Part shown: positions 10,191 through 34,299 of the stretch, in pieces | Layout of the letters: each line of letters starts with the position of its first letter | Numbering within the stretch: position 1 is the stretch's first letter | Assembly: GCA_963969595.1 (NCBI GenBank) | Contig: OZ018416.1 | Span: 19,484,065-19,548,064, forward strand | Source: Neckera pumila | Taxonomy: Eukaryota > Streptophyta > Bryopsida > Hypnales > Neckeraceae | Direction: 5' to 3' | Length of the DNA: 64,000 bases | Made by a program: the position numbers and the translations under genes | Notes under the pieces: model-generated | Databases searched by the model: none | The model's input: the letters and a program-made list of their open reading frames with translations, nothing else | What the model was told of the DNA's origin: nothing

Positions 10191-10450
10191 GTTCATTGAG
10201 TACATCCTCCCAAAATTTTAGAATGAACCCTCCCACCAATTACAAGAGCAATGTACCTAAACTTCAAAAATTAGTTTTTTCAAGCCCTTTCAAAGGTGAA
10301 GAATTTCAAGAATTTTAAAAAGAAATATGTGTATCCCATAACTTGTGTATTTTAGTCAAAAGGTTTGAAAATATGTTGAAATTTTATAAAAAAAATATTT
10401 ACAAAAAAAAAAATTATATTCATTTAAAAAAAATAAGAAGGTGGAAGGTG
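10190..10450. mobile_element. Left half of a TTAA-family relic split by the 21-kb element
   Basis: The stretch aligns with ~46500-46780 inside the element at 46371-47411. Shared stretches include CCTAAACTTCAAAA, TAGCCCTTT-AAAGG-like runs and a common AGAAGGT end. The alignment resumes on the far side of the 21-kb block at 31504. The outer left end of the relic is too eroded to place. Confidence 0.7.
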
Positions 10451-10479
10451 AACACAGAATTAGACATTCTTGCACTTGG
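10451..10479 (+). repeat. Left terminal inverted repeat of the 21-kb element
   Basis: 29 bp beginning AACACAGAATTAGACATT and ending GCACTTGG. A second TTGCACTTGG follows at 10491-10500, a possible subterminal transposase site. Confidence 0.75.
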
Positions 10480-10811
10480 GGGGTGCAACATTGCACTTGG
10501 CTAGTACGGCATCTAAAATGGACAGTCTCAAATGTTGAGGGGGGGGGAGGGATTATTGAAAACATCATTTGCTCTTACTAGGAGAAATTGCTTGGTGAAA
10601 AGTTGTCAAACACTCCATTTTTTATAATTATTTCATGAAAACCTTTCACACTTTTCACTCCACACTACTTTGAAGACATATTACTCTGCACTTCACACTC
10701 AAGTACTTCTACATACCTACAACTACAAGGTCAAAGAGCACTGCATAATATCATTCTTCACTAATATATATTCAAATCCATCTGCAGACGTACGTCATCT
10801 AGGTTCTCCAT

Positions 10812-13800
10812 CTACATTGCCATGTATTCCAGAAGATGCGCTTTAGCCTCTGGTGGAATGATCACTGTCTCCTCTGTTTGCACGCCATACACTGTAATCT
10901 TGGAACCTATAACAAGACCACTTCTCCTTTGACAAGGGACATCCGTCCATGAATATATAGCGGCTTTCTTCTCAGTCCAGCCCAACATCTCACCAGACGA
11001 TTCCCATGTTGACTCCATATAGTTTGTGTACCTTACTCGGTTACTACCTGCTTCATCATGTGCTCCAGGTCTCATAGTAGGCCAATACCACAGGACCTTC
11101 ATCTTCGAGGCCCACGTCGCTTGACCAAATTCTAGCACCTTCCCTAAAAAAAAAGGTACTCCTCCTCTTACTTCTGCTAGTTCTACGGTAAGGGCTACAT
11201 ATTGCCCTACAACAACGTCATTCTCTGGATTGAATGGAGGAAACGGATCTTCCTCTATATCTTGTCGTAGCTCTGGTATAACTTCATTCCTTCTACTTCG
11301 AATCCTCCCCCCAGTCACTTTTCGTGATGTTGCTTGTGCAGGTCTATCTCTGCGGGGTCCGAAATATCCCCTCCTCTCAGGATTTGGCATTGTCGCCATA
11401 ATTCTGTCAACTATTGTACTCTCCGTTTTATTTCCATCCTCATCAACAATTGCACTTGGAATTGTACCTCCTTCCACGTCAGGAACAATTCCATTTTCCC
11501 TGTTTTGGTTCAAGACATCGCTAGGCCAAAATGGTAAATCACGGATGCCTTCTCTATTTCGTTGTGGAAATTCCTCCAAATACTCCTTGAATTGTTCTAT
11601 TTCGTCCACCACTTCTATGATCCTGATCGGGTTGAAGCCTCTCTCTATCATCTTCTTCTTGTATGCAATGAACTCATCCAATGCTTTCAATTCCCTTTGA
11701 TCAGCTGCAAATACCTCCACGAGGTCCGGTTTCTCTGCTACGCTCGGTAGTGAGTTCAAACACAAATGCCCTCTCATTGGGCCCCACTCATCTGTGCAAA
11801 AATGCTTGTGTTGCACACGGACCAATCCATTTTCTACGTAAAACCTCATATGGTGCGGAAATGTGATGCCCGTCAGTGATTCCCCTCCTCGTAGTAAATG
11901 AGGTGTGATAAATGCCTTCCAATCGCAAATGTGCTCAAGCTTGCGAGCACTTACAAAAACCTCTGTGTACAACGTTCCCTTCTCCACTAGTTGCAACATC
12001 TCTGTCAAAGTGTCTATGTCTCTCCTCTTCAATACATTTGAAATCACACTGAATCTCTGATCAATGTCCTCATGTGTGTGGCCCACTATCAAAAAACAAA
12101 GATGCACTTCCTTGAAAAAACCAAGACCAACTAGTGCAGCACACATGGCAAACATATAGGCATTCTTGTTCTCCCTCGTGGTATTATCCGCTTGAATCCT
12201 CAACGTTGGTGGCAATGACCCCTTCCTTCGTTTCACGTCGCATATGACGTTCATCACCGATGTTACAACTTGATTGCTATCATGTTTGTGGTGAGCATCT
12301 ATCCACACGTCTGCATACAAGCCGATACCATGTACAAGTACACCACATAAATGAGTCTTCACAAATCGAGATTCGATGTTCTTCACAGTCTGCCTCATCT
12401 TCGATATCATGGTCGTGTTCTGATCCATACCGTCCACAATCAAACACATGAAAAAGTCCGGAGTGATCATCGCGGACCTCTTGAATAACCAATAATCTCG
12501 CCTCTTTTCCATTTGATATCGAATGTGTAGCACGTACAGCTCTTTTATCTTCATCTTCGCGACTGCATTCGTGGTGGATTCCATCCCACACTTATACTCA
12601 CAACAATGATAGCACTTTGAAAACCGAGAGAATGGTGGGATTTGCACATGCGGAAATTCCTTCTGCCAGAGTCGACGAAACGAAGTCATCGACCACTCCG
12701 ACCCGTCTACTAGTTTCTTCACTTCTTTGTTCACATATTGAAAAACGTCCAACTTGCTCATATTCATTGGCAACAGAATCAGTGGTAGCACCGCATTGTC
12801 CATTTTCCTGCGAATTGAACGATGGGGTTGTTGACATCCTACTTCGTTGAAAAAGATGTTGAGGCTTTCTCTAGCTGCTGACATTTTTGCACTTTCCCTC
12901 TGCTGGCATCTGTTTCCATGAATAGCTGCCACTCTGCCATATACAGCATGTGCTGTCTTCAATTGCTTCAAACGCCTCTAAGAATAACCCAACGCCGCGG
13001 CGTAGCATGCATTGCACACAACTATGCCATCTAGTTTTGTCACGTACTTGTCTCTCATTGGACCCTCCGTGTGAGTGTAAAAGGCATTAAGCATTTGCAT
13101 TATCCAAGTCGCGCGTGCTTCGTACTTCTGCCCCCAGGCCATATATCGTTGGTCCAATACATATTTTGCGTCTACATCACGCAAACAATTACGTTTACAT
13201 GCTCCTCTCTCCTTCACACACATAACACTGTCAAGAGTAACTTTCTGACTAGCAGACTCCCCCCTCTCCCTCGGACTTCTCACCCTCGCCCTTTGATTTG
13301 CCATTGAATACCTCCTCCTCGAAGCATGCTTAGGCAGTCCTTCACTTCTTGTGAAATCCGCAGTGTTGCCTTCAGAGGATTGTGTCAGAGGAGAACTTCC
13401 TTCACCTGTGCTTCCTCCACCTTGACTTGGTGGCGTGAAATCGGATGTGCTTGGATTGTCATCCACATCATGAAAATCAAAAACCGGTGCAGAAATTGGA
13501 GGAAAACAAAAATTCTGCCCCTCCCTTGCATTTTGTTGTCGTTCTCACCTCGAAGGGAAGTGCATGACGAACTGAAGCACGACGCCAACGTATAACTTTA
13601 CCTACACAATCTCCTATAGTTTTTCCTACCAACTCCCCAACCCATTCTGTTTCCTGTACAGCACGTGTTATAAGAACCGCAATTTCAAAAGGACGTAATT
13701 TCATGTAGTGAAGTTCATCACCGCATGCAAAATTGGTATCCAGCACGCCAACTCCGACAATACGTCCTTCATCCCCAAGAAATTGGACCATGCCATTCGT

Positions 13801-13962
13801 AGACTGCGGTTCTCCATCCACAGGTGCACGATCTTCTTGTTCAAAAAGTCTTCCCCGTACCACACGCGCCAATCTTTCTCCTACGCTTCTTCGCTCTGTT
13901 GCAACCACCGTGGTGCCCACTGCATTGAAAACTACTGGACTTTCAAATGCTTCTTCCGCCAT
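10812..13962 (-). pseudogene. DUF7869-type, DDE transposase-like protein gene, lightly broken
   Basis: ATG at 13962 (MAEEAFESP). Frame 13962-13549 (138 codons) continues in another frame from 13514. A 34-nt GT-AG segment (13548-13515) would join them in phase but is too short for a normal plant intron, so a small indel is equally likely. One in-frame TAG at 12980-12978 separates ...AALGYS from RRLKQLK; otherwise it is open to a TAG at 10812 (about 1,038 residues). In the last ~719 residues, a Cys cluster CYHCCEYKC precedes LIVDGMDQ (D180, D183), ADNTTRENKN (D262) and VGHTHEDIDQRF (residues 296-307). These read as an RNase H-like acidic triad, typical of DUF7869 proteins. Residues ~584-632 (VGQYVALTVEL, FFLGKVLEF, VLWYWPT) resemble an SH3/BAH-like module. 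The N-terminal part weakly recalls the DUF8039 beta domain. The likely role is transposition of the surrounding element. Confidence 0.75.
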
Positions 13963-16900
13963 TTTCTTCTGTCACTACTACATTACAATTAAGTATTTTT
14001 TTTAGCAATATGAAAGTATTTCAATATCTTACCAAACTAGTACTTCAATGCAATTCCATTCAAAAAATAATTTTGAGAAGAAAGCTTCCCAAGCTTGCAA
14101 AAAAATCCTAAGTAACATAAACACCAAAAAACCATTAATTTCATTCTTATTTCCTCCATTCCTTTGTTTTGACTAATATGTGTGTGCCACTCATTTAGTC
14201 AATACTGTATTGAAAATCACAGCATCTTGTACTTACAACTTCTAATGCACTATGAAACCTATTGATAATAACAAAGTGCACAGTAATTTTACTTCAGCTT
14301 CCAAAACAAAAACATTGTGAACACGTACAAGTAAACAAATAGCATAATCCATAAATCATTCTCATGAAAACTTTCAGATTACTAATTCTCTTGTACAACG
14401 CAAAGATAATAATATTCTTCCATTTTCATTAACATGCTTCACCATATTTCTACATAGACAACAAGCTCTCCTTCTTCCTATAAAGTGATGTACATAAAAT
14501 TAAAAACAAGAAGTCCACACATCTTAATCGATAATTTGTAAATGCCTAATGTCTTCTTCAAGAATTTCAAAGCCGTATCACAATTACCAAAAAAGCATAA
14601 TCATGTTCATGTTTTTAGTCAATTGTTTCAAAATCGTTACACTATAGATTTTATATTGATACGTTCAAGAACAAGTATTACTTTTCAAAAAAAAATTCCA
14701 CTCAATACTGATTTTTCTCCCTACTAATTATACTAGATAGCAATACACTGTTAAATTCAAAGTCATCTTTTCTATCCACGTCTTTTTCATTGACGTTGAA
14801 TGCAAACTTTAACATCTTTGAAACCAAAAGAGCTTCAATTCTTAGAATTGCAAAACCTCAATAATGGCACACACATTTCTATCACTTCCACGGATTTACT
14901 TATACTATTCTATATATGCATTACCTACGCCACTTTCCCGTACATGCACAAATTTTTTGTATCATCTTGTAGAATTTCTAGAAGGTAACAAACTTAAATT
15001 CCTTCACTTCTTTACACTTTAGATTCCACGTGCAATACAAAAGGCAAAAACAATTTAAATGTATTAGCTAAGCAACTACTTCTGATACGTGTTCAACTAC
15101 AAAATCTGAAATTCCTATTAAGAAACAAGAAAAAAATTGATTCAAAAAGACCTTGCTCTTCCTCTACCAAAAAAGTGCCCTCTTTTATGATCAATAACAC
15201 TCGAACTGCCTACTTTGGAAGACCATTAAAAATAATTAAAAAAAATTCTTTATCATGTTCATTGTTCAGTGTCCTATATAATTTATTCCACATAAAAGGA
15301 ATTGACATCATATGCTCTTCTCTACATTCAACAAATAGATTTGTTATTATAGAAGATAATTTAAAAATCCAATTTCCCATACATTTTTTCCTAATTATCC
15401 AACAACCACATTTAGAAATTCATGGGAATATAACCTGTGCAAAGTAGTTCTACTTAAAATTAAATTACATTCATGTTCTTTGTTAAACGACTTTTTTTAT
15501 GTATCCAAAACAATTCATATAAAAATTTCTTCTCTTGAGTATAAGATGTACTTCACTACATTTGTAATAATCTACTTTAGACATTAATTTAGTATTTCCA
15601 GTTTGGCACTCTACTTCAATGACATCCTCATCCTTGATTCCATATTCTTACCACCTTCCAAAAAATTAGCATACTCATATACATTGGTATAGACGCAATC
15701 TTCTTCAAGTGAAAATGAACTTCTGGAATGAGCTTTTCAATGTATTTACAACATTTGAGGTAATTCATGTCAACCCCAACCCCTAGTAACTTTTATGTGC
15801 AGAACCCTTCAATACTGCGGGAGGGGTCCTATTCTTGAAAAAAAAATTTCTTCTCTTGTTATAATTTCAAACTGGAATGGTTTTCTTTTATGGTACAATG
15901 TGGACTGGTTTTTTAATTCTAAATGTTGATGAACTATACGTACAGTCTCAAAATTTGTTTACATTAAATCAATCTTCATTTCTACTCTTCTTAAAATAAT
16001 TGAATATTAGTTCTACAAATAGAATAGTAATAACTGGTTAATTATTTTGTAGAAATGAAAATTTGATATTACTGTTGCCACTAGTGACATTGTTCTAGCA
16101 TTGTCAGACAAAGACGTGCAACTTGGCATTTGCAGAAACTTTTGAGAATTCTTTTCAAACATTAATTCAACTTCTTCTTGTTCTCCAATACCACATTAAA
16201 TCCTAAAAAATAAGGTTGTCTACAACACTTCTATCATTAATTCAAATAGAATGAATCAATTCTTCCCATGACCACTACAACACTTTAGTTAATTTGAAAA
16301 AATAATTTGAATGTTTTTGTTTATAATCCACTAATCCAGCAGTTTGCGACAAACTTCATTTACAACTTTCATTAGAGTACCATTGTATTCAGGCACAATA
16401 CATCTGAAAATGGTAGTTAAGGAAACCAATTACAATTTTCAACCTCTAGAAATATTTACATCGCCAGTCCATCACCAGTCCATACCCAAACCATTTGGTC
16501 TACTTCAAGAAGATTCAAAACATAAGACTCTGTAATATAGATGTTCATACCAAAAGTTCTTATATTGATTGTGGAAACCGTTGATTGCCTCCCATCCACC
16601 TCTATGAATTAATGGAATTGCTACTTCTTATAAGGTTAGAAAATTAGGTATTCAAATAGAACAAACTATCCTTTCAACAATTTGAAAGGATAGTTTACTT
16701 GAAAGCTTCAAATTCAAGTACCAAACAAACCTAAACTTCACCACAATTCAAATACTTGTCGATTTTGTAGAACAATTATATTACTTTGCAAACATGTTCT
16801 ATATGAACAATCACTGTGCTCTAAAAGCACTCATTTATCTTCCGTGGACCAAAGATGCTCTTTGTGGAAACATTACAGTTCAAAGGAAATCACAATAAAT

Positions 16901-18600
16901 GGACTCCTAGTATTCTCTGCCAATGTTATGAAAAGGTGTTGATTATGTTTGAATAAACAAATTTTTTATTTTAAAGATTACCAACTACATAATGCTATAA
17001 TATTTTTTGAGTCAAATCAAAAACTTCATGCATTAATTTCATCCCATCAACACAAAAAAGAAAAGGTGTAGTCAAGTTTACAAATTTCTACATAAGTGGT
17101 AAGCCTTGCATCATTCCATTTTGATCAATCAGAGGAATGTAATGAGTTGTTTAAATGTACGCTTATTTCTGGATAACCTACTATAAAAATCTTCCTCAAG
17201 TCCTTCATTTAATTTCATTATCAATGTTTATGCTAAAAAGTAAGATCATGGAATGTACGTTTTGCAATACATCATTACAACCGCTGGAATTGACATTTAT
17301 TTCTATATATTTTACAATTGTAAGTACTATTAACTTTTAATTCAACAAACCAAGGCATTCATAGAACACTTTGAATTTCCTGTGACAGAGACTTCATGGT
17401 AGGCAACTTTCAACCCTAAAGTCCCATTGGACCAACAAGGGCCACAACGCAATCTTCGATAGGCTCCTAATTGTTCAGGTGTTGTTGTCATTTTTAGAAA
17501 CTTTTGGGGAAGTGGTCTAAATACATAAGGTTCTTGGAAATAAAATGTATATCTCAGTTCATGCTTGGGGCAAAAGTTCTAGTGCAATAAGCCAAAAATG
17601 GAGGTCAAGGGGTAGCATACAAAAGCATAACAACAAATTGAATATCATTTTTTTCCTTCATTTTTTTACCTACACTATTAATTCAATCTTTAAGCATGTA
17701 AAATTTTAATTTCAAAAGTTGTAGTGCAAAAAATTTCCACAAAATGCAATCAAAGTCATTTGAAATTGCAAGACAATAATCCTAGAACTGTTTTTCCATA
17801 CTTTGAATGCTAATCTCTTCTAAATGGTACAGTCAAACTTCATGAAAATTTTTATCACATGATCTCAAGTAAGTGTATCACAAGATCCTATCTTTAGATC
17901 CTTAAAAGATTTATTTATCTACATATACAACAAAAATGGCAGTTTCATGTGCTTTTCGGGAGGAATATCGCTTTAGGACTTTAGTGATCAGAGTGACTTG
18001 GTTCAAAAGGCGACCTCTAATACAGAGGCACATTTTTTTTTCTTCAATGTACCAGTAGTGTACATTGCAATAGGGGGGCGTTTTTGAAAATCATTGTGTT
18101 TTAATTTCTAGAAATCATAAATAATTCCTCAAACGTCCCAAAAATAAGAAATGAGTAGGGTTAGATGCCAATTCCATTATTCTTCCCATCGGAATTTATT
18201 TGTTTTTTGTTTTCAAAACTTCTATATAGGTACTAGAAAAGGCAATGTCCAAGCGTTTTTGATGGAACATAGTCATGAAACTTTAGGTGTTAAAGCAACC
18301 ACTGCATTTAAACTTCAAAAATTTGTAACTAATTCGACGAACATCCAAAAAATATAAAACGACTTGGGTTAGATGCCAATTCAATTATTCTTCCTACAAG
18401 AATTCACGAAAAATTGTTTCAAACATTTTAGTTTACCCCTACATGCATCTCTTAAAGCAACCTTGTATTAGCTGATTGCCTACATTAGTGTGTATCTTGT
18501 GAAGGAATACAGTATTCCTAAGACCACTTACAAGCGCTGGGAAGATCAGCCCTACAAGATGAAAATTGGGCGACCTCCAACGGAATCCCATCATTGACAG
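13963..18600. other. AT-rich interior of the 21-kb element, no gene seen
   Basis: About 4.6 kb upstream of the left gene. Short open frames here lack any recognisable motif. The stretch probably holds that gene's promoter and 5' UTR or noncoding filler. A short inverted pair (AACTATCCTTTC... near 16670 and its complement near 16690) forms a small hairpin. Confidence 0.5.
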
Positions 18601-19035
18601 AAAATCGCAACCCTAATCTACCGGTGATCTATCTTCGGCGCCGTAGTTTCACAGTTGGCTTACGAGTCGGCGTTGGAAATGAAGAAGTCGGCGTCGCAGT
18701 TGTTGGATGCAGCCCTCGCCGAAGAAGTTTGATTCAGGGATGCGGGTTGAGAGCGGGATTTAGGTAGTATGATTTGGAAACGATTTGAGTAATTTGAGCG
18801 ATTTAGAAACGCAGACATTTGAGAGGCCCTCAGTTTCACAGCGGAACACAAACGGCGCCAAGTTTCGAGAGAGACTCTTACGTCGACCTAGGATGTGCCT
18901 CATCTGCGAGCTGTGCGCCTGATCCAGGTAAGCAATTCATACTTGTTTTTACATTTGTTTCCTAGTTCTTGGACGACTAGGTCTAGATTTCCTACTGTGC
19001 GTTATTGCGCTTTGCTGCGTGTTGCTGCACGTTGG

Positions 19036-19101
19036 AGTGAACAGTATTTGTTGTTGAACCCTCCGCACATGGGGAGGGTTCAACAACAGATATTGTTCAC
19101 T
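19036..19101. repeat. 66-nt hairpin with 29-bp arms
   Basis: Arms 19036-19064 and 19073-19101 match at 27 of 29 positions around an 8-nt loop (outer end AGTGAACAGT, inner end TTGAACCCTCC). A second small palindrome, TTGTTCAC/GTGAACAA, overlaps its right end. It could be a tiny foldback element or a small-RNA hairpin. Confidence 0.7.
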
Positions 19102-19599
19102 GGTGAACAATCTCAAATTCCCGTTACAACCGGCCTCCTCAAAAAGTCAACCAGCCAGCACAACATGTTTTACACAGGTAGCCACGTAGCCAATACAACG
19201 GAGAAAGTCTTTTTTTTTTATCTTACCTTTCTTGCAAGATTCCGCATTTCTAGCTCAATGATGAGGCTAACGCGCTCCCGGTCCCACGAGGTTCTTGAAC
19301 TTGGCCGTCCGCTCCTGCTTAGCTTGGCCTCCGCTACGCACCCGCTCTTGCACTTTGTTCCTCCTTGCTTGCTGTGCCCACATTTGCTAGAGAATTCCAA
19401 GCTTGTTGCCTGCCGCTGCCGCTACTTGTTGTCTGCCGCTGCTTGCCAGAGAGTACGAGAGGACATAATTTCTGAATGGTGGAAACAATTTGAAGTTTGT
19501 GTTTTCCAATGCACACGTAGGAAGATCAGAGTTTGGCGCAACGTTCGAGCAAAGTTTGAGCAGAGTTTGCCCCATGCAGGCGAGCAGGAGCAGCAGGCA

Positions 19600-19700
19600 A
19601 CTGGTCCCTCGTTCGCTCCAGTGCGCAGCGCAGCTTCCTCGTTTGCTCCAGTTCGCAGCGCAGCTTCTTCGTTCACTCTAGTGCGCAGCGCAACTTCCTC
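19600..19700 (+). repeat. ~30-bp minisatellite, three units
   Basis: Three diverged copies of a unit containing TCGTTCGCTCCAGTGCGCAG and ending GCAGCTTCC. In one frame it encodes a ten-residue repeat. Confidence 0.7.
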
Positions 19701-20399
19701 GGCACCGCACCACCTTACGTGGGAAGGGGCTCCTCGCATATACTCGCATATACTTTCAAAACTAGCACACAAGGTCTATACGCGGGAACGGAGCTCCGTT
19801 CTCCTCCCACCACACACGTTCCAGTCACTCACTGCACAGCCACCAAGCAATAGCAGCAACAACACAGCCACCAAGCAACAGCAACAGCGCGAGGGCTTGC
19901 AAATGCTGGCAAACGCAGTCAGTCCGTGAAGGGATTGGTGCCACTTGTGTACGTTTTTCTGGGGGTAGGGTCAACGCATTTTTTCTAACCTTCTTTGATT
20001 TTTCTTGCACTGTTCTGGATGCCCTAGAAACAACAGTAACAAGAAATTCGGGGCGCAGTCACTGTAGCTGGTAGGCACAGTCCTTGCCATAGTCGTCGAT
20101 ATTGCCAGTTCGGGGATTTGTCTATGCATCTGTACCCTGCGAATCTCCAGTAAGTGATTGTTAGGTTACCATCACTTTGCATCTCCCCATGTGCGTGGAT
20201 TCCACATATTGCCTATGTGCAACGGAACTGAAGTGCATGACTGCCGTGATTGTTGGTTAGATCTCTCTTTCTGTGGACTAGAATTCAAAATACTTCTCTA
20301 CGTGATTACAGGTAGAGAAATTGGAAGTTCCGTTTGGCCTGCATTTCGAAATGGCACTATGAATAAGGAGTAGGTTTTTCTGATGAATTTTATGGCTGG

Positions 20400-23300
20400 G
20401 CTTTTCCTAGGGTGTTTTTCTTGCTCAAGGGATAACTCTATTGATTGAGTTTGTAGTTACTTGGAGAAATGTCGGCCACGGGAGTATGTTTGAGTTTCAT
20501 TTTACGTAGTTATATCGGTTACAAGTCGTATAATTTTGCATCCTAACTGTTGGTGTGGCGAGACCCAGACTCAGGAAGGTGTGGTTGTGGTAATGCTTGA
20601 GAAAAATATGGCAAGGAATTCCAAATGTTTTATCATAATCTTAGATTTGTACCTTCATATGTTTGGTTCTAATTGTGTGCTTAAAAGCTGGCTCCAGATA
20701 CAGCTGTTAGGATCACGTTGATGGCATGCATGCACTCGATTCAGTGGACGATTGATTTTAGTTCAATGAACTTCAAAAATTCAGTAAAAACACACATAAA
20801 TTTCAACAACTTACCAAATAACTTGATTGCACAAAGTTATGGTGGATTGTTGAGAATTCACAGTGAGTCCACGGTACTGCTTTTAGGTAGCTGTTGAAAG
20901 CCTGTCCACTGTACTCTCGCAGTAAAATAAATCCTGGAACCCTAAGTGACGGAGCAAGAGTCAGAGCAGCTATTGTAGGTTAACTAAAGAGTTTATGTGC
21001 AAGGGAATCGTGTGCTGTACCAGGAGTCAAGCTAGCTTTGGTAGGTTGGCAAGTGAATTCACTTTAAATTGCACTGTTCAGCAATTTAGCATGTTTGAAC
21101 ATGGTTTTCACTACTACAAGGCTAAAAGCTTAATATAAAGAACTTACATGTGTAATGTTGGATTATGCTTACGGAAGAGTTTATGATAAAATTATTATTT
21201 TGGGTATTAAGAACAATTTAGGTAGACAAAAGTTTTTATGATCTCTTGGTTTTTATAGTTTGAAAAACAATTTGTGGGGTCTCACTACTAGTCAAAATAG
21301 GATTCTAGATTCTCTTAGAATGCAGTTGTTGGACACCGTGTGAATAAACTACAAATTTCCAAAGTGTAGGAGTAGATGTACCTAAAAGCAATCATATAAT
21401 TGTATGAACACTGGAAATACATTTTTGGTTAATATATCCATTGTGTAATTTTTTAGATTTAGTAACATTACTGAATATAAAAGAATAGCACAAAACTTTG
21501 TTATTGCTTCTCTATTTCTTCTTTGCTATAATTGTCTGGTTTTTAATTTACTTCATATTAAAACGTTGGAAGAATTGAGAACCGGATCTGAATCTTAGAT
21601 TTGAAAATAAAATCCAATACATTTTTTTTTTAAATAGTCATTGTGGAACATTATGAGATCTTGATTGACTGTGAACACTGATAATCCATTACATAAATTT
21701 AGTAATAGTGAACTTTCCTTTTTATTGTGTTTTCAATTTATACATTAAGTAGCTCAGGATAATTCAAGTCTATGCTAATAACAACAATGATTGATTGAGA
21801 TTTCAATGTAATTTCATCTTCTCGATATGATTTTTTAAAGTATACCAACGAGGATAACCCATTTTGTCGCCATCATGTCTTATAAAAGAAAGATGCTTGT
21901 TTCCATTCACTAATTCCCTCTCCATTGTAGATGCAATGCATGCTTAAAGACTAGCGTATGAGAATTTCTACATGAAATTGTTTTTGAAAGTATGGTGCTT
22001 TTCAATTGCATTTGCGCTCAGGTCTTCACCCTCTTAGCCGTATTTTTATATTTTGTAGAAGTACTGTTTCATACATTATTTTTTAGAAAGGGCACTTTTC
22101 TTGGAAGGGATTTCTACAAGTACGACAATTATGAAACTCTAACCATTTCATGTGGCAAATGACTTCATTACTTGCAAATGACACAATCATGAATATGTTA
22201 AAAGATCTTCAAGTATGAAGCATGAACAACATTATTGACATTTTTCTTTCATGTTCCAGGTTTTTCCAGATGAATACATATGACAAAGGGGTTTGTAATC
22301 AAGTAGGAGAAAGTGGGTGATTTTAGGCTACAAGCTACAATATAAATTGCATCAGATATTTGTCCTTCATTCTGGTATTCTGTTGGGCAATGTTTCAATG
22401 GATGATTATTCCTTAGGAATTTTAAGTGCAGTCCTGAAAAGGAGTAAGCAAATTTTTTAATCAAGGGACATTAGGAATCTCATTGTTACAGACGTGTGGA
22501 TATGTAATTTTGATCTTTATTTTTCCTATCATACTTCATTGTAGGTTCTTTTGCTATAGTTGAATTATATTGTACAATAGAAATTTCAGAAACTCTATTA
22601 GATGGCATACAATTCAAGAAGATAGCATTGGAAGAAGACTATTAGAAGTGTTATTTGAATTCTCTTTCATTGAAAAACTCTTAAACCAAAATGTTCATAT
22701 ATTTTTTATTGAAATTCCAATTTTAATGGCATTATCAAAAAATTATTTGGTTTTAGGGAGTACCTCTCTAATATACATTTTTATTTTCCAAATTTGAAGA
22801 TTAAAGGCCAGCAAAGAATATAAGGAATAGGTAGAGATTCCTATTCAGAAAGAAGAAGAACTCATGATAATTTTATAAAAATGTGGAACCTTGACAATAT
22901 TTATGTTCTATGCTGAAATATGTATATTTTACGTAAAAATGACGAACGCATCAAATTTTGTTTGCGTTCAACCCTTCACAAGTTAAATTGTTATCCTATT
23001 ACTTTTAAGAAGTTTCTCTTTATATATTTGAAATGAAAAAGCGTTGTCTTTTTGGAAGGCAACTATACAAGTAGGGCAATAATGAGATTCACACACTTTT
23101 ATGTGGCAAAAGACCTCATCACTAGCATAATCGACGTTCATGACACTTATTTTTTATGTCTTGGTATCTTTAGAGGAAAATACATGTTCTAGGTCAACAA
23201 CGTAGACAAGGAGCTTCGTAATCGTTTTGGAGAAGTGGGTACTTCTAGACATCAAGCCCTACATAACTTGCATCAGGTAATTGTCTTGAACTTTTGTACT

Positions 23301-26300
23301 CTCCTGGCAATATAAAAACTATTCTTATTCCTAAGCAAATTTAAGTTTTGTTTTGAAAAGGAAAAAGCCAAATTTTTTATCAAAACACATTAGGAACATT
23401 AATTAAAATTTTGAGTGGATATATTTTTTGAGCTTCATTTTTCCTATCATATGTAAATGTAGTTTCTTTTTATACAATTGAAGTAGATTATTTCAAGAAA
23501 TTTCAAGAACTAGGATGGCATACAATTCAAAACTATAATAGTTGAAGAAGACTATTAGAAGTCTTCTTCAATTTTGTAATGATAATCTCCTCAATCAAAA
23601 TGTGAAGGTACCTATTGTTTGTATTCCAACCATTTTGGCCTTCTTAGGATTTTTTTTTGGTTTTCGATAAAGTTTTTCTATATACTTTTTCTTTTTTAAT
23701 TTTGATGAGTAAAGGCCGATGATGAATGTATGAGATAGGTAGAATTTTCTATTCCAACAAAACAAAAATAATTATAATTATTTTTAAAATGTAGAACCTT
23801 CTATTATTTATGTTTGAAATGGAACTAAGTATATTTTATCTAAAAATGACGAATAGATCTAATTTTGTTGTTGATTTCAGTTAGAATTTAAATTTAACCT
23901 GAAAAAGTTCTTGTTCGTGGCTTTCTTGTTTTGAAATATCCTTGTCTTGTAATGCAATTTTAGCACGAAATATCTGTAGACCCTGCAATATTAGTTTGAA
24001 ATTTGAACTTAAAACTAGAAGAGTTTTTTTGTGGAGTAGTTTACAAAATTTCAACTACAAACATTGTAAGGAAGAAGTGCTCTATGAGCAAGAACATTTG
24101 CTATTGGTTTGAAAAGAAGTTATTATGTAGCAATAGTTTTCGGATTAAAAAAAAAGGTAAATCAATGTAACGTAGAAATTGAAATTGAAAAATAGAAAAT
24201 AGAACTTTGAGAATTGTTCTATCAAACACTTAATTAGGCTATTGAAAAGTTTGAAAGAAATTGTATGATCTTGTTCATAAGTTCATTGTGTGCATTGTAT
24301 AATGAAGAATATATTTTGGTGACCGCAAAAGAAGAGGGTCAATGTATTTGTCATTGCATGGTAATACAAATGACTTGATTGAAAGCATCTTACGTAGACT
24401 AAAATGGTGTACATGAGTTCTTCAATCATATAAATGGATTTTTTTTTAAATTTCTTTCTATGTTGTCTTCAAGCAACCTTCACTACGACTTCTGTAGTTC
24501 ATACTTTAATTGCAAAGGTTATGTTTGGATCTTTGAAACTATATTCTTGGAAGTAGTTTATTTTTCTATTTCAAAAAGAACACTTCAAAAAATATACAGA
24601 AATAACATAGTGCTTGAATGTATTGAAATTTTCTTTGATTTTAGAATAGGCATTTGATAAAATGGAAGATCACACGTAGTTTAATGAATTGAATAATTGG
24701 AAAGTGATTTCTATTAAAGGATTCAAGTATGGAAGAAGTACCTTCATGAATAATTGATCTTAATTGTCTATGCACGCGAAGATGATGGTTTTATGTTCAT
24801 GTGCATAGAAAAAAGACTTGAAGCAAGTATTCTACATCAAAGAGCAATGACATAAAACTAATAGTAAAAAAATTTATAAACATAGCAATTTGTTGAATAT
24901 GCTACATGTACAATTAATTCAGCACCTCAATTTTGCTTCAAAGGATTGTTGTAAGGCTAGCTTGCTTGACTTATAACTTTGAATTTTGTCATTCTCATAG
25001 TGCTAGCCCCATTCTATGTAATTTGTGATCCCTCCTTTGAACTTGGAGTGATATCTATTTTTTTAGAAGGATGTGCCTGCCAGGGTTAGCATAGTGAACG
25101 CGGTAATATTCAATAAAGGTAAGTCACTCTTTAGAATAAATTCTTGCCTAACGATTTAAAAGATACAATCAACAAATGAAAGGAATGTTGAAGATGTTGA
25201 TAGTACGTTTGGTTGTGGCATATATTTGAAGGAAGGCATAACATGCATAGCACATGAATTTGTAGTGAATTGGTGCTGCATAGTCTATCAACCTGCACGA
25301 TTCTCTACACAGTGAAGACCAACAACGACATCCACATCAGGTATTTTTCTCTACCTATGAGAAGGTCAAGTAGCATTACATTTCTCTGAGAAGGGATCTT
25401 CTTCATGCTTATGTCATTATCGTTTTTTTGAGCTTGTTGTTTATTTTTTCAATATATGTAGATGCCCGTGCAAAGTATGAATTCAATAATTCATGTCTTC
25501 AGTTATTATTGGATGATTATTTAGATAGAATTTTAGGATTCAATGGATTATAGGATGAAAGCATTATTAATATGACTTTGAAGATTATGACAAAGAAAAG
25601 AAGGCAAAATTAAATTTCTTAAATTTATTAATCATAGCCATGTATGGTAAATACTGAAGTTAAAATATCCATCGAAAGTTAAGAGTTCAGGATTTTGGAT
25701 AATGTATTGTAATAGTTGAAGAAAAAGGACTATTTAGGATTTTTTCAAACTATGCCATGAAGCAGGTAATCAGTACCCTTTCAGGAGTTTGAAATATTTT
25801 GAGTGTAGACAACTTTTTGTTGTACAACTTCTTTGTGATTTTGCATGAATTTGAATTCACAATTTCAGTACGTCAAAGTGTTTGTTTTACATACATGTTC
25901 AACTAAAAGAAATTTTTTAATGAACATTATATTTCTCATAACCAACAAGGAAGTTTATAAATTTTTTTGAGAATTCAGAGAATAGAAACACTTGCAATCT
26001 TCTGCACATCACAGTAGTGAAGTGTTTGTATTGTAGAGATTGCGTTGAAGTGAAAAGTAACTGTATCAATGTATAACATATAGATTTTGATGAACCTCCT
26101 ATGTCGAGGGCATGAAGAGCAAATTAAATTTTTGAGTCCATGGTTCTTCAGTGCATTACTAAAATGGCGTCATGCAAGTAGTTGATAGGATTGGGAATTT
26201 GAAATCCTTCGTAGCTGGCAAATAGCAAGTACATAGAAAAGTGCTCATTATTAAGTTTTTAAAATAATTTATGCAAAAAATGGTAGAGGAACTCCCAATA

Positions 26301-27210
26301 TTCAGACCATTATGACATTGTCTATAGGAACTGTATGATGCAGTTCCTTGTAGTCAATATGTGCACACGAGGTGCTAATACATGAGTTTCTAATAGAAAA
26401 GTATCATTGATTTTTTAATAGTTTATTTGAATTGCATAGTATTCAGTTTGATTTTGTTTTTTTGATTAAGAAATTTTTAAAAGAATTCCCAATATAATAT
26501 TTGTCATGTACTTGAAAATTATGTTTTGCCATGAACAACGTAGAGGACAATACAAACAAGTAGGGTATTGATTTTTCATGTCGTTTGATCGGTTCTGAAA
26601 ACGACATTGCATTGTAGGTCTATAGCTTTCTGGAATCTCTCATGTATATATTATAAAATTAGTTTTGTAATAGAATTTTAATATCTTGAAGCTCGATAAA
26701 AGTGTTTTGAAAAAAGAAATAGAACTTCAACTTTGAAACATTAAATGATATGATTTTGTGTGGATGTCCACAAGATAGTGAATGAAGATAATAGTGAGGG
26801 CATATATGTTATATTATTTACAAGTGACAAGTAATAGGCTTTTTATATGTCAAATGTAGAGGACGTTCAATTTTCAAAATGTAGTATGAGCTCTAAAGCG
26901 GCTTCATTATATTTTGTATTAAGAATAGAACAAATGTTGTTGGAAAACAATTCAGTTTATATACATGTGATTCAATAGTGGATGGAAAGAAGGTTAGTAG
27001 ATATTTGGTATCCAATAGATCTTCCATGAACACATTTAAAAAAATTGGGATCTTGGTGTCTTTGTTGATCAAATTTGAACTTCACAACAGTGCTAGCATA
27101 GTTTTCACATGACCTGTATTTATGAACATGTCTTCAAGTTCTTATTATGTATTTTAAAACTTTCAAGAATGTCTATGAATGTAAAGCTATTCTTGAACTC
27201 TGAATTTCAG
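20400..27210. other. AT-rich interior of the 21-kb element upstream of the right gene
   Basis: No gene is supported. Part of 21050-21350 matches 41283-41430 in reverse orientation, so a small dispersed repeat is embedded here. Two diverged direct copies of ~0.9 kb follow at ~22080-22980 and ~23030-23890. The rest shows nothing beyond AT-rich sequence. Confidence 0.5.
22080..23890 (+). repeat. Diverged tandem duplication, two ~0.9-kb copies
   Basis: Ordered matches include GTGGCAAA-GAC-TCAT, ATGGCATACAATTCAA, GAAGAAGACTATTAGAAGT and AAAAATGACGAA, each repeated ~900-950 bases apart. The copies differ throughout by substitutions and small indels, so the duplication is old. Confidence 0.7.
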
Positions 27211-27216
27211 GGCATC

Positions 27217-30200
27217 ATGGCACCGAAGATGAATTAAAAGTGGTTGGAGCACGGATGGTGGATTGTAGCAGACGATAGTGAGAGATCCTCTTTGTGGATC
27301 ACTGATTTTCCAGTTGACGATCAACGTTACTGGTCTGCAGTGGGGACCTCACATGGAGTCATTGAAGGCCTCACGGGCACCGCTGACGGAGGATTGACGG
27401 TGTCAATGACCACTACGGAAACAATTCTGGAGAAGTACAAACTCCAGAAGATATCCATGATGGCCCCTGCTCCACCAGAGCTCCTTTTATGTCTCACTCC
27501 CATGCGGAGCTTGAAAGCCGTGGCTCTGCATTGGAAGATAATGCCTCATGAATGGCAAGTGAAACAAGAGGGAGCAATTCAAAAATTCATGAAGATGGCC
27601 CCTGAACAAGTACGCGAATTACGTCATCAATACCTGGAGATTCGTAGACTTGAAGAAGTACGAAGGACGAATCCAAATGTTCCTCAAGAGTAGCGTGCAC
27701 CTTAGAGATGCAGAAGACTCAAATTAAATATATCGAAACCTTGTTGCGCCAGTTAATCCAAATTGGGTTTCATTGGAGGAAAGAAGTCGCAAGCAAGCTG
27801 CTGTTGAAGCGGGATTAGAAACCAATACAGATGAGCAGGGTGTTTCTAGTACACCGAGGGCACATCGTCAGCATCTCCAATCGGCAACCACTGATGTTGG
27901 CGTTCAATCTACCGGTGATGACGAAACTAAAAGGCAAGAAGAGGTATTGAACCAAAGGAGCGAACCAATGATGCCAGCATTTGAGCCTCTGGATATTGAG
28001 GAGAAACAGTTTCAATGGGACAGGGCTGCAGCTCAAATTCCTATACCAAGTGAACCACCGATTTTACCTCATTTTCCAAGCGAAGGTAACAAGGGAGCTC
28101 CAACTACAGTCACGGAAGCGGGTTCTGGATCAAGACAACCAAGAATTCGCTTAGGAGGAATATTGTATAGATCACATGTTGTAGTAGCCAATGTGGATGT
28201 TGGAAGAATTGCCGATCGTGCACGATAGGCTGCTGATATGGGACGAGGTGCTGGTAGGGGACAGAGTGATGGTGGAGGACAAAGAGCTGATGCAGAACGT
28301 GGTGTTGGTGGAGGACGTGGAGCTGGTACAGGACGTGGTGCTGGTGCAGGACGTGGTGCTAGTAGAGGACAAGGTGCTGATAGAGGACGTGGTGGGAATG
28401 TGTTGCAACATGAATCTGCAGTGGAAGACATCTTAGAAGACCAAAGAAGGCATCGCACTCGTCCAACGGATGCTATAGAAGAGCAAGGCGCTAGGAAGCG
28501 AACACCAGCACAAATACGTCGTCAAAGAGCAGCCTTGCAAAGCCGCCCTCCACAAGGAAATGATGGCAAAAATGTTGTTATTGATAATGATTCCTCTGAG
28601 AGTGAACCGGAGCAAGAGCCTAGAAGAGTATTGCCGAAGAGTATTACGAAAGCACCTGTGGTTTTTCCTACTGATATCGAGTACAGAGCAGGATATTTAT
28701 GGGGACAAAGTCTGATTTTTGATGCAAGGATCGATAGCATCTGCGATGTGGCTAACGTAGAGACAAACCACAGGGTACTCATGGATTGGCGTGTGAATGA
28801 AATGTACGAGCGCCTCAAGGGATCCGAAGCTGATGGAGTTAGTGCGATTACCCTTCGTCTCATTGCATATCGCTATGACAGTAGCAATGACGAGGGCGAG
28901 ACGGAGGTGATAGAGTGGCCGTTTAGCCAAGAAGGTGCTGCACGTGAATTTGAAGCCGTGTATTTGAAACATTGCCGGGCGGATTCATCCTTCTCGAGCA
29001 GCACATTGCAGAAAAGGTGGCTGGAGAGCAATATTATATGGGAGCCAGTAGATGGCCAACATGTTGTTGGTGCTTGTAAACGAGCCCAACGGGAAAAGGA
29101 AGAGGGACACTTATCCAATGAGGAGTATCATGCGCAATTTGTGAGACGAAAAGCGAAGTTTGTAGTGTACAACAATCCTCAGTTTTATATAGAAGTGTCG
29201 GTGAAAATAAATGCGAAGGAATTTGATCGGAAGTTCTTCACCACGCATTACGAGAATCTCATCAAACTGCACGATATATGGAAAGCATGTGGAAGTCCAA
29301 GTGTTGCTACTCAGGCTGACGATGCACACAGAGCGAAAGCATTGACAATGGCAGCGAGTGCGTTACATCTAAGTCAGAACTTATCAAAGCATGTATCATG
29401 GAGGGAGTTGTCGAGGAAGATGGTGGACTACACACGCCATGCTTGGCATGAAGACGAGGAGTCCTATAAGGCTATCGTGCCGGTGTGCAAAGATTATGAG
29501 GATGGAAAATTATTTTTCAGCAAGAAAGCGGAAGATAAATGGAAGAAGACGGCTAGAGATCAGAATCTTGATGTCACAGTGGATAGAAATCTGAAGCGCA
29601 AGAGGATGGAGAAGACCTGGTGGAGGCCCTTAAACAGCATCTCTACGGAAAACTATGTACGTATGGTCCAAGAGATGGTTGCAAAGGATGTAGTGAATGG
29701 AAAGCGCGCTTCGCAGCAGTATTATTTCAATGATGCTGCTTCCGCAAACCCCTCCAAAGGTACAATAGCGTATGTGGTGGATACTTTACAACGGAAAGAT
29801 GCGATCAGAAACCAAATTTGTTTTTTTATAGTAGAAGCAGGGGATGAAAATCCATCGTCTATGGATGATTTCTTCTCCATTGACACAAGCAAGTATGGAG
29901 ATTCGAGAGGAAGGCAGTTCATCTTGATGGGGAGGACATTGGATAATGACACAAAGACCTCGTGGTGTTTTCCTGTAGTGACAACGGTTCGAATGCTAAA
30001 TAATTTAGAGAATGTCGTCCCAGCTTTCGTTAGGCAACACTTTGTGGATATCCGAGCGGGTCGCAAAGGTTATGCGGGATATGGTCGAGATGTCAAGGAT
30101 GTATCAAATGCTCATTGGAACTGGCAAGTTGCAATCTCTGTAGTGCAACACGAAGAACATAAAGCCTCATTTCACGTGAGATGTAGAGAAAGGTTCTTTG

Positions 30201-31291
30201 ATGACGAATACATTGAATTTGGCAAATCATATTTATGGATTTTTGATTGTAGACGTGGAGGTTCGCAAGGGGAGGACATCCTATGGTCGAACGAGGATTA
30301 CAGCAAGGTTGTGCAACAACTGAAGAACTGGATGTCTTGCATTTTCCGTTGGAATGCCGTGTTTCTGTTTCCGCCAGGTGTATCAATTGATGAAGCGATG
30401 GAGTTGAGGATGGCATTGTCAGAGGGTTGCCACATGCTGCAAGGTTCTTGGATATTTCAAACAGAAATAGTGTCTTCATACGTGAATGATTTGCGTCATG
30501 GTGAGCAACGACGCCGCGGTGTACAACCTGTTGGTGGCATTGTCATCATCATGAATTATCCGAAGGAGAGTGGGTTCATGGAAAACCTTCCTAGCAGTAC
30601 GGAGGACTTACATGTTATATTTCAAGATTCTTGGAGTACAGAAGTGATGCCTCGAGCACAAGATAAATTTGAGAGGACACCAACGGAGTTGAAGAGATTG
30701 GTACAAATGTATCTGCCGCGGAATTGGGGGTTGGTAACATTAGGCATCACAATGGCAGTGCCAGGGATTTTGGAGACAGGATATGTGGGCAATGATGTTA
30801 TCATTATGGAAGGTGTGTCCATCAAAACGCAATTCGTGTACAACAGATTGCAATCAATATACGGGGAGAAGTTGATGATGGTGAACAATGTGAGTATGGC
30901 CGCCGAATGCAGACCTTCACAGATGTTGACTACAGAAGAGAATTTGCCTGGTTCCAGGGTTTCTGAAACAGATGGAGGTGTGCCACGTGGTAGAGTTGAA
31001 AGACTACCGCGATCATCCAGGGACTCCTTCGATGAAGAAGAGAGATTTCAAGTGACTAGACAGGGAAGGCAGAAAGGGAAAGCTATAGTAGTTGACTCGA
31101 GAGCCTCATCGACAAACGAAGAAGACAATGATGCCGAGCGGACACAGTCTGACAGATTACCAAGTGCTGGGCGAAGTTTAGGTTCTCGTCGTATTCACCA
31201 TGGCGCTTGCAACAGGTGTTGTCAGTCCCTCTCATTGGAGACGAAAAATGAATACATAAGACCAAAAGAAATGATTGATAGGAAGAAATAA
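27217..31291 (+). pseudogene. Unrecognised RGG-rich transposon protein with ParB-like DGQH motif, lightly broken
   Basis: ATG at 27217 follows a TTTCAG acceptor. The frame (MAPKMN, in-frame TAA at 27235, KWLEHGWW...) runs to 27693, shifts between 27690 and 27770, then stays open to 31291 except for one TAG at 28226. The last segment from ATG 28238 has 1,017 residues. Order in that segment: Gly/Arg repeats (1-53); a basic and acidic linker; WEPVDGQHVVGACKRAQ with D272-H275, followed by KFVVYNNPQFY and VKIN (322-325), resembling the ParB/sulfiredoxin DGQHR pattern; FDCRRGGSQGEDILW (D670) and TLGITMAVPG (G836), placed where a beta-class DNA methyltransferase would have motif IV and motif I but lacking DPPY and a proper glycine loop. 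The methyltransferase reading is tentative. If right, the enzyme site is dead. Probably an accessory transposition or DNA-binding protein. Confidence 0.6.
28238..28396 (+). repeat. 18-bp-based minisatellite encoding Arg-Gly repeats
   Basis: Units close to GGACGTGGTGCTGGTACA occur about eight times. They encode GRGAGxGRGA-type RGG/RG repeats, a nucleic-acid-binding low-complexity tract at the start of the right gene's long segment. Confidence 0.85.
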
Positions 31292-31474
31292 AATGTATTG
31301 GACTTGTATTTCTCTAGGAAGAACTAAAATGGCATCCTCATAGAGAGTTTGCATTCAAAGTGATACTATTGCACGATGAAATCAAAAAATAGATCTCTTG
31401 AAAATCTGGGGGGTACTCAAGTTTTTGATAATACATTTTGTGTGAATAGTTTTGCATACAATCATTGCACTTGG

Positions 31475-31503
31475 CCAAGTGCAAAAATGTCTAATTTTGT
31501 GTT
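31475..31503 (-). repeat. Right terminal inverted repeat of the 21-kb element
   Basis: Complement of the left end with two mismatches. The inner side extends into the palindrome TTGCACTTGGCCAAGTGCAA at 31465-31484, which doubles the subterminal motif. Confidence 0.75.
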
Positions 31504-31940
31504 GGTGGTGCTTGGTGAGAGAAATGACTAAATTGCTAATAACTTTGACAAAAGATTGAAAATTTCCAATCTTAATCATAAGAACGTGCTAGTAAGCGTT
31601 AGATATTTTAAGTTCTTGTTTGGAATTTTAAAATTTTAAAATTTGAATTCACAAAGAAAATTGATTTGATTTTTAATTAGTTTTGTTGCCTTCTAGGAAG
31701 AACTCCTTGTAACTTTCAATCTCATTATTTCAAATAGAATAGAATTTGAAGGATTTTAAGTAACACTACAACCACTCAAAATTATCATAGATAGTGTTTC
31801 TGAGAGTCAAGACCTCAGAGTCTGTCAAATTGGGTGCCTAATGTGATGATTTTGAAAATTTCATTATTTTTATAGCCAACCTCACAATCTACCTTGCATG
31901 AAGGATTTTTTTGTTTGGATATTGAACTTTGAAATCCAAG
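31504..31940. mobile_element. Right half of the TTAA-family relic split by the 21-kb element
   Basis: Aligns ungapped over its first 38 bases with the element at 46371-47411 (shared ACTAA-TTGCTAATA), and more loosely for several hundred bases. The right end cannot be placed. Confidence 0.65.
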
Positions 31941-34299
31941 TTTATTTTGCCCTTGTACAAAAGATAGATCAATTCAAGAAAAAGTCATTGGGCTATTATA
32001 GGATCCAAGTTCCTTAACTTACATTCTTATAATTTTATTTGTAAATGATGGCCTAGATTTGCTATTTGCTACTAAAATGACAAGAAAAAGTCATTGGTAG
32101 GTATTGCTGCATTTTTCAATTTGCATTCATTCACTACTTTGATACTCTAGCATTCCTTATCACCTTTGTCGTCACTACTTTCCTTTAGACCGTCACCTTA
32201 GCAAAATTACTTTCTCCCAATGATGGATAGAAGTAGCCACTTCATCGAAAGCTCATCGAAAGTTCATATGTCGTGGTGTCGCCCCTGCTTAGAAAAAGCT
32301 AATTCACTAAAAAAAACGTTGGTTTCAACTAGATTGCAAGTCGATCCACGGCCACCAGCAACATCCACTCGAATCCATTCTCAGCAATCCAATGCTTTGC
32401 TGATTTGTCCTTCTCCTCCATGCTGCTTCCAACCTTCTCTACAGCATTCTTGAACAATGTTTTTTTTTCTAGCAATTTTGGTGCTGAAATTGCACCAAAT
32501 TTCATGGCCTGACACCATGCCTATAGAAAAATGGTTCGGAGTACTAAAAAGGTGAAAAATCGCCAAAAAACTTCCAAAAAAAAAGATTGTAGATCTTGGA
32601 TAAAACTACCAGATTGTAGATGAAAATTGAATTATTGATATGTGATATGTTCTAATATGATATATATATATATATATATAGATGAATGTTGAAATTTGGA
32701 ACACCATAAATGAGGCTGTTTGTTTGTTTGTTTGTTTGTTTGTTTGTTTGTTTGTTTGTTTGTTTGTTTGTTTGTTTGTTTGTTTGTTTGTTTGTTTGTT
32801 TGTTTGTTTGTTTGTTTGTTTGTTTGTTTGTTTGTTTGTTTGTTTGTTTGTTTGTTTGTTTGTTTGTTTGTTTGTTTGTTTGTTTGTTTGTTTGTTTGTA
32901 CAACTTCATGACCATGCGTCCCCCGGCCACGTGTTTGGTACCGTCGGAAAGCTCTCGCCGAGGAGGGGTGCACCGGCTTGTTTTTGTGGCGTTTGGAGCG
33001 GTGGTGCAAAAGTTATTGAATTTCAAAGTATTTATTGATTAAAAAATTAGAAAATTACTTTTACTTTGATTTTGGTGGCGTTCTTGGTACTAGGAGTGGA
33101 ACCGGGAGTAGATGAAAATTGGGCCAACGGCACAGGGTCACACTAGTAACATTCAATATCACCACTTTGGCACTTCATTAAAAAATGAAAAACAAACCGT
33201 GTGCCAGTTCTTGAAAATGTTGGAGGAGGGATTCGATCAAGGCGTGCACGTCTTTGTTGTTCGGTCGCTGCCTTTGGTCCATTTGTTGTTGCTGAATTCG
33301 AACCAGTCGCAGGTCTCGGATGGCTGTGATTTTGTCGCTGGGGAGCGAGGCTTAGGCCGGACAACGTCATTTTGGCTTTCAACATCGATCTTGATTCTTG
33401 AAGGTTGCATGGGATCTCTCGCTTGCTTGATGCCTTGAAGCTAACCTTGATGACAATTCTAGCCTAAGTTGCGTTGCTTGCGCTAGCTGATCTATTCAAT
33501 TCCACAAAAGCTAAGGTTGATTGCAGCTCCTAAGGTGCGCGCGTGGTATCGATGTGAATTCGACAAAACTAAGCTTAATCAGCGCTTTCTAAGCTGCTTG
33601 ACAGGTCTGTGCTCTGAATTCTACAAGGTGAGCTTCATTACACACCTATGTTGCCCTCTCCTCTGTCTTGAAGCGCTTGAAGTCGGTCACCGATCCTCGA
33701 TCTCCTACCAAAATTGCTTGCAGTCTTGCAATCAAAACCCTTGGTTGTTTCACTGCTATATATTTCCACGGAGTTTATGGAATTTCAAGGGATCAATTGA
33801 GGTAAGGTAGACCAGCCTAATTCGGACTAGAAAAACATCCAAATCTGACAAGTAAATTTTCTGACAAAATCACTGCATGAATGTCAACACGGGTAACACA
33901 TCGACCCTTTCTTGGTGGAAACATAGAAAGGCGGTTTGGTTTTGAGTTGTTCATAAGATGTCTGCAAATGCCTGTTTGGTTACCGTCGGAGAGTATTGTG
34001 AAATGTTCGTAACTCCACACTTTGGATGGTACACAATACACACTGGTATTGTAAATATCTGTAATTTTAATTTTAGTTCTTCTTCACACAAATGTAAGAA
34101 GATTGGCAATGCAAAGTCATGAACCATCATCGTGTGAGTGAATTCATGAACAAAGTAAAAAAGTCTGCACACTGACTGCAGACAGACTGCCAGTTAGAGT
34201 TACGACCGGTCCTCCAGCATGGGGCGATGGCAGCTGAACTGGAAAATTTCTTCAGCTGACTGGTGTCCTGGCAGGAGTATCCAGGACGAATAGACTCTA
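31940..34299. other. Intergenic, no supported gene
   Basis: Apart from the TGTT tract, nothing is recognisable. A GC-richer block at ~32900-33550 holds short open frames without motifs. It may be a degenerate repeat or gene fragment that I do not recognise. Confidence 0.45.
32717..32899 (+). repeat. (TGTT)n microsatellite, about 46 copies
   Basis: 183 bases of an almost uninterrupted tetranucleotide. All long open frames across it are artefacts of a repeat that is stop-free in several frames. A short (TA)n run lies just upstream at ~32658-32680. Confidence 0.97.

Follow-up and report, generated by a model that had tools for sequence, protein, structure and literature searches.

The stretch of DNA analysed here, referred to as the window, comprises 64,000 nucleotides of the genome of the moss Neckera pumila, and its positions 10451-31503 are occupied by a 21,053-bp copy of a DNA transposon. 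The element is bounded by 29-nt terminal inverted repeats (TIRs) complementary at 27 of 29 positions (93%), is flanked by a 4-bp target-site duplication (TSD) and carries two divergent genes, designated gene A and gene B. A preliminary description of this DNA had pointed to the matching inverted ends 21 kb apart and to two long broken frames directed outward, and both were seen as claimed. The features of this copy, in order of position, are the following.

10447-10450, no strand: left copy of the TSD, GGTG, 4 bp
10451-10479, plus strand: left TIR, 29 bp, AACACAGAATTAGACATTCTTGCACTTGG
10470-10479 and 10491-10500, plus strand: left-end direct repeat, TTGCACTTGG present twice
10812-13971, minus strand: gene A, DUF7869 protein and putative transposase, ~1070 amino acids (aa) when intact, here broken by an in-frame stop codon and a frame change
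12060-12434, minus strand: conserved acidic residues of the presumed nuclease centre, from the 44-row alignment A3
12432-12434, 12186-12188, 12066-12068 and 12060-12062, minus strand: codons of conserved aspartic acids (D)
12069-12071, minus strand: codon of a less conserved glutamic acid (E)
14199-22131, no strand: intergenic region, divergent from the other copies read
27238-31291, plus strand: gene B, conserved protein, here with a frame change, an in-frame stop and part of the 3' end missing
31189-31243, plus strand: deletion junction, 53 bp here against 805-1400 bp in six copies
31465-31484, no strand: perfect 20-bp palindrome TTGCACTTGGCCAAGTGCAA, right end only
31475-31503, minus strand: right TIR, 29 bp, AACACAAAATTAGACATTTTTGCACTTGG read inward
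31504-31507, no strand: right copy of the TSD, GGTG, 4 bp

The ends of the element read AACA..TGTT and the TSD abuts the AA. The genome searched consists of 339.5 Mb in 18 contigs, with the window at 19484065-19548064 of contig C9. Its plant character shows in 49 matches to the light-harvesting protein family and in the STIG1 and F-box domains of the window. With up to two mismatches, the end pattern was found at 289 places (137 + 152) as against none for the reversed pattern. Among 100 listed of these 289 ends, adjacent pairs less than 40 kb apart were inward-facing in 34 cases and outward-facing in none, and the inward pairs fell in size classes of 9.1-11.7 kb (11 pairs), 14 kb (one) and 19.7-24.9 kb (22). 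The preliminary description had proposed a genome search with the ends and 200 bp of subterminal sequence, and paired copies were recovered with the terminal 200 bp of each side; empty sites came from a separate search described below. The left 200 bp returned 113 first-look candidates and the right 200 bp returned 132; 40 of each were scored, with identities of 94-100% and 90-100%, respectively. A right end in the proper, opposite orientation accompanied 28 of the 40 scored left ends, delimiting elements of 13,952-26,217 bp. The element with paired inverted ends is genuine and is carried in dozens of copies in the genome. Its two ends are not alike. Examination of 24 of the 28 elements revealed that 23 of 24 left ends hold TTGCACTTGG as a direct repeat of two or more copies, each with at most one mismatch. 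On the right, TTGCACTTGGCCAAGTGCAA was present with at most two mismatches in all 24 ends and unaltered in 20 of them; none of the 24 left ends had it. This asymmetry, a palindrome on the right and direct repeats on the left, suggests a different mode of binding at each end.

The flanks were compared in 27 elements, representing the window copy and 26 of 27 others (C3:10.88 was dropped as it gave no right repeat). An exact 4-bp duplication was found in 22 of them and a duplication of 5 bp or more in none, while a control with mispaired flanks (200 trials) gave 4-bp identity in a mean of 0.96 and a maximum of 4 of 27. The imperfect duplication of ~11 bp proposed earlier for the window copy is thus replaced by the 4-bp GGTG. 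The element shows a preference for the target CAC-NNNN-GTG. Reading toward the TSD, the three positions outside it are C in 24, A in 28 and C in 20 of 44 flanks (p = 3.5e-9, 6.4e-5 and 3.1e-6, respectively, against distal flanks); the full CAC is present on at least one side of 11 of 22 sites and AC on both sides of one of 22. The preferred target resembles the element's own AACAC ends.

Empty sites were searched with queries made from the 22 sites with an exact TSD, 60 + 60 bases being joined with a single TSD retained; 21 of the 22 sites were entered exactly and C1:14.30 was incomplete. Relatives crossing the junction were found for at least 8 of 22 sites (C1:46.07, C1:33.99, C10:1.99, C9:6.08, C1:50.82, C4:17.42, C2:16.99 and C5:3.96), a lower bound because only 40 of 5,593 and 40 of 11,106 candidates were scored in the two queries of this search. 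The relative of C5:3.96 covers 120 of 120 bases at 98% identity with no net gap. The matches for C1:33.99 and C4:17.42 span part of the site only, the sites of C1:46.07 and C2:16.99 are repeated DNA with many relatives, and one relative of C9:6.08 is situated ~200 bp beside the element itself.

Both genes belong to a single large element, as the preliminary description had proposed. A divergent DUF7869 gene was found 12.2-29.9 kb away from 38 of 41 scored gene B hits, with a chance of ~0.6% for each; the pairing used the best 90 of 150 scored DUF7869 hits, from 793 candidates. Two of the three partnerless gene B hits lie inside the paired-end elements C1:46.07 and C10:1.99. Both gene blocks were present in all seven other full-size copies compared, one of which was read only to 1 kb short of its right end, and C2:3.49 can be aligned from one end to the other with both C1:46.07 and C1:5.30 (20.9 kb, ~97% identity). 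Neither gene was seen with a pair of ends of its own, an arrangement named earlier as one that would speak against a single element. Across nine copies the ratio of nonsynonymous to synonymous differences (pN/pS) was 0.37 for gene A and 0.53 for gene B (34 of 36 copy pairs for the latter), skipping codons with stops or gaps; decay after insertion shifts both figures toward 1. Values below 1 for both genes suggest that the two proteins are under constraint, that of gene B being the weaker.

With both frames broken and ~0.76 kb lost near its right end, the window copy looks dead. This segment is present, with both flanking blocks, in six of the seven other copies. The closeness of both frame ends to the element ends, emphasized in the preliminary description, therefore holds for this copy, but on the right it is partly a result of this loss. 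Among the other copies read, an intergenic stretch of ~1 kb or more is hypervariable. Three shorter copies were also read, of 14.0, 9.2 and 11.0 kb, the last two being among the eleven of the 9.1-11.7-kb class. The 14.0-kb copy (C2:2.19) has a complete-length gene A and has lost most of gene B, with remnants left. The 9.2-kb and 11.0-kb copies keep the left 1.3 kb, which holds the tail of gene A, along with the right end, and are flanked by 4-bp duplications (CATT and TACC). Of gene B, the 11.0-kb copy still holds a small remnant; the 9.2-kb copy showed none. On the basis of their sequences, all three look like internal deletions. Copies with one gene between such ends had been named beforehand as evidence against a two-gene element; the 14.0-kb copy is one to the letter, but its gene B remnants make it look like an internal deletion. 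Related subfamilies at C9:20.59 and C1:1.72 have the same type of ends with the 4-bp duplications CTTT and CTTA, and a third at C4:26.67 showed the left end alone within the stretch read. The element also contains a direct repeat of ~0.9 kb in two copies (22406-23869; blocks 78-84% alike), with cross-matches in other copies too, and, in its variable middle part, a 32-bp hairpin with arms 91% complementary (19036-19101), a stretch kept at 93% in the 14-kb copy.

Gene A matches DUF7869 (PF25273) with an E value of 1.7e-51, in agreement with the earlier assignment, and this is the sole Pfam match there. It is open across 1070 aa in copy C10:22.71 and free of stops in 6 of 44 scored hits (from 758 first-look candidates). 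In 22 of 28 elements the distance between the left end and the DUF7869 domain is 1328-1346 bp. A total of 81 homologues were found, most of them unnamed, the named ones being from oyster, mussel, amphioxus and sea urchin. Alignment A3, representing 43 chosen homologues and the window protein, showed D505 in 41 of 41, D587 in 41 of 42, D627 in 41 of 44 and D629 in 43 of 44 rows (numbering of protein P0004), while E626 was less conserved (37 of 44). We infer from these residues a D-D-D nuclease, which lends support to the DDE-like nuclease suggested in the preliminary description; their role in catalysis is presumed from conservation, and the DUF7869 protein is best read as a transposase. PF25273 is described as a domain of unknown function, and no paper naming DUF7869 was found in the literature searched. 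By eye, the C-terminus of the gene A protein (~10812-11300) resembles a chromatin-reading fold of the SH3/BAH/Tudor type, with no such Pfam match.

Gene B comprises ~1500 codons in copy C1:46.07 and is uninterrupted over the aligned part in 7 of the 41 scored hits, which came from 273 first-look candidates. A profile search of 5.8 billion proteins (7,988 candidates scored) gave 11 homologues, including P0084 and P0085, both already present in the query alignment. No family matched at E <= 0.001 in Pfam or other family searches. Isolated weak hits were taken for chance: DUF3106 (E 0.0013, below the family cut-off), and Beta_helix_2 (E 0.002), phrog_35330 of unknown function (E 0.0018) and NF011983 (E 0.0091), each in a single member or piece. 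CxC3, a KDZ-associated cysteine cluster, was at chance level in one member (E 0.12; score 12.6 bits, cut-off 26.6). A prokaryotic or viral source was also considered and rejected, as P0084 had no match in the phage collection and none of 34 viral-contig stretches matching a pattern of alignment A2 was a relative.

Two conserved motifs of gene B were compared by eye with motifs of other proteins. WEP(V/I)DGQ is present in all 19 and DCRR in all 15 rows covering each. The form WEPVDGQH resembles a ParB/DGQHR-type motif, and DCRR sits where a DPPY-type motif could be; at that expected place all 15 rows read DCRR. Profile comparison confirmed neither likeness. No ParB or methyltransferase family, the methyltransferase domain PF01555 included, was hit in 13 gene B members with Pfam, NCBIfam, PHROGs and PADLOC at E up to 10; the ParB_N and N6_N4_Mtase models found nothing above cut-off in the genome, and a ParB search in 48 virus records gave one weak hit below cut-off. 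The gene B profile was also compared with 61 methyltransferase-type sequences (E. coli yhdJ, five proteins of phages and reading frames extracted from viral loci; four were checked in Pfam), with no significant result (best E 0.092; E 0.71 at the expected place). For residues 540-800 the top profile score exceeded all 60 shuffles, but its register contradicts the motif reading, and the expected register was matched by 5 of 60 shuffles and, with a deeper alignment, by 5 of 40. An 18/54-bp repeat inside gene B (28241-28394) encodes a Gly/Arg-rich tract.

Taken together, we consider it likely that an inactive copy of a giant cut-and-paste transposon, most likely of Sola type, occupies 10451-31503, with gene A encoding the transposase and gene B an accessory protein. 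In the proposed mechanism, the gene A protein would bind the 29-bp inverted ends, excise the element through an RNase H-like D-D-D centre and insert it at target sites cleaved with a 4-bp stagger, favouring CAC-NNNN-GTG. Gene B would encode a conserved accessory protein within this element; our best guess for its role is that of a DNA-binding partner helping to assemble or protect the ends, with the right-end palindrome as its candidate binding site. Intact copies may move the shorter ones (9-15 kb) in trans.

Plant Sola elements are described with a DDD transposase, a 4-bp TSD, TIRs of 11-1124 bp and variable ends, mostly 2-9 kb in size with some above 15 kb, and they occur in Physcomitrella (PMC10741241). 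The element described here agrees with this in its 4-bp duplication, its 29-bp TIR, its giant size and its occurrence in a moss, and the conserved D505, D587 and D627/D629 would correspond to the D-D-D centre, as judged from sequence alignment only. It differs in that most Sola elements are smaller, and neither a second gene nor a target preference appears in the portions of that description consulted (PMC10741241). Sola1-1_Ec32 of Ectocarpus is 21.5 kb long with an accessory gene on the opposite strand (PMC12477816), resembling the ~21-kb size and the layout of transposase and opposite-strand gene seen here. Its accessory protein of 1104 aa is reported to combine ParB-like and N4C/N6A methyltransferase parts (PMC12477816), whereas gene B is longer and in model searches matches neither. 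The TSD, the D-D-D residues, the giant size and the published two-gene Sola1 element lead to the Sola label, which on its own appears moderately probable.

Other groups show fewer likenesses. The CMCT clade (EnSpm/Mirage/Chapaev/Transib/Plavaka) shares short duplications of 2-5 bp, but its termini are mostly CA..TG (PMC12730594) in contrast to AACA..TGTT here. It is reported to carry, from its second D to its last E, the motifs C(2)C and H(3-4)H (PMC12730594); the corresponding segment, extractable in 31 of 44 sequences, contained CxxC in none and H(3-4)H in one of 31 (P0055). KDZ elements are likewise giant and carry accessory genes, but make 7-8 bp duplications (PMC12730594, PMC12477816) unlike the 4 bp here, where no KDZ domain was found. 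The resemblance to Mutator-like elements suggested earlier rested on the imperfect flank similarity of ~11 bp. Mutator-like elements have duplications of 7-12 bp (PMC10741241), and the duplication length of the 27 elements refutes this assignment, which with DUF7869 as the sole match in the left gene has practically no chance of being correct. Equally negligible is the idea that a chance pair of ends encloses two unrelated neighbouring elements. Seen by itself, the window has its two genes 13 kb from each other, as such neighbours could be, but the idea is refuted by the recurrence of the layout in 38 of 41 gene B hits, the 28 of 40 paired ends and the three copies aligning over 20.9 kb.

The preliminary description had found the ends to fit no superfamily. 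As far as TSD, D-D-D residues and size are concerned, the element fits the Sola description; a separate superfamily of two-gene cut-and-paste elements, recognised by DUF7869, AACAC termini and duplications of 4 bp and unrelated to Sola, stays as a rival which we regard as rather unlikely. It is favoured by the unassigned function of PF25273 and the lack of DUF7869 in the literature searched, by the named relatives from oyster, mussel, amphioxus and sea urchin, and by the finding of no matching terminal motif (AACAC ends) in the parts of the transposon literature consulted. Against it, the 4-bp duplication, the size and the presence in a moss, along with the presumed D-D-D residues, agree with the description of Sola, whose ends are said to vary widely (PMC10741241). 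A literature search on mosses, Sola, ParB and giant transposons, with paywalled papers and Repbase outside it, found no published description of this element; the word Sola is absent from a paper on Physcomitrium transposons (PMC7466625), and a fern genome paper (PMC6890710) has a single table row for it.

For gene B, an origin from a fusion of ParB and DNA methyltransferase was also considered, in which the methyltransferase signature was lost and the protein binds the ends without methylating them. The invariant WEP(V/I)DGQ and DCRR motifs, by their resemblance by eye, hint at such an origin. A similar layout is also published for Sola1-1_Ec32 (PMC12477816). The failure of four databases to return any such family, and the non-significant profile comparison with its best register in disagreement with the motif reading, argue against it, leaving this origin plausible, though somewhat less probable than its negation. 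A still wider reading, which we hold as speculative and doubtful, would make DUF7869 the catalytic domain of a transposase group of plants and animals, here in a giant two-gene system whose gene B binds the asymmetric ends and descends from a DNA-marking enzyme, its catalytic motif changed to the invariant DCRR.

Several observations weigh against a Sola-type two-gene transposon with a DUF7869 transposase. Twelve of the 40 scored left ends, and as many of the 40 scored right ones, stayed without a partner among those scored. Five of the 27 elements had no exact duplication (C2:0.53, with one mismatch, C10:18.35, C6:23.74, C6:2.20 and C4:26.70), and another two A-B neighbour pairs, less than 45 kb apart, were not divergent. 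The genome contains a second abundant DUF7869 group besides the one paired with gene B. No relative of solved structure was found for the gene A and gene B proteins at E <0.3, and the likeness to Sola and to Sola1-1_Ec32 is one of published descriptions.

The analysis proposes a function for DUF7869, a domain of unknown function, and contributes one more example of a giant transposon accompanied by a conserved partner gene, in this case from a land plant. The role of the second gene is open to testing, as the element occurs in dozens of copies, has defined ends and empty sites, and retains some uninterrupted frames.

The second DUF7869 group covers profile positions ~35-191 with scores of ~130-143 bits and includes many long open frames. 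An Rfam scan of the window gave no match. Frames with a CW zinc finger (7237-7752), STIG1 (42699-43247) and an F-box (52432-53106) flank the element. A perfect array of the tetranucleotide TGTT is situated 1.2 kb beyond it at 32717-32899, with 45.8 copies over 183 bp and 100% matches.

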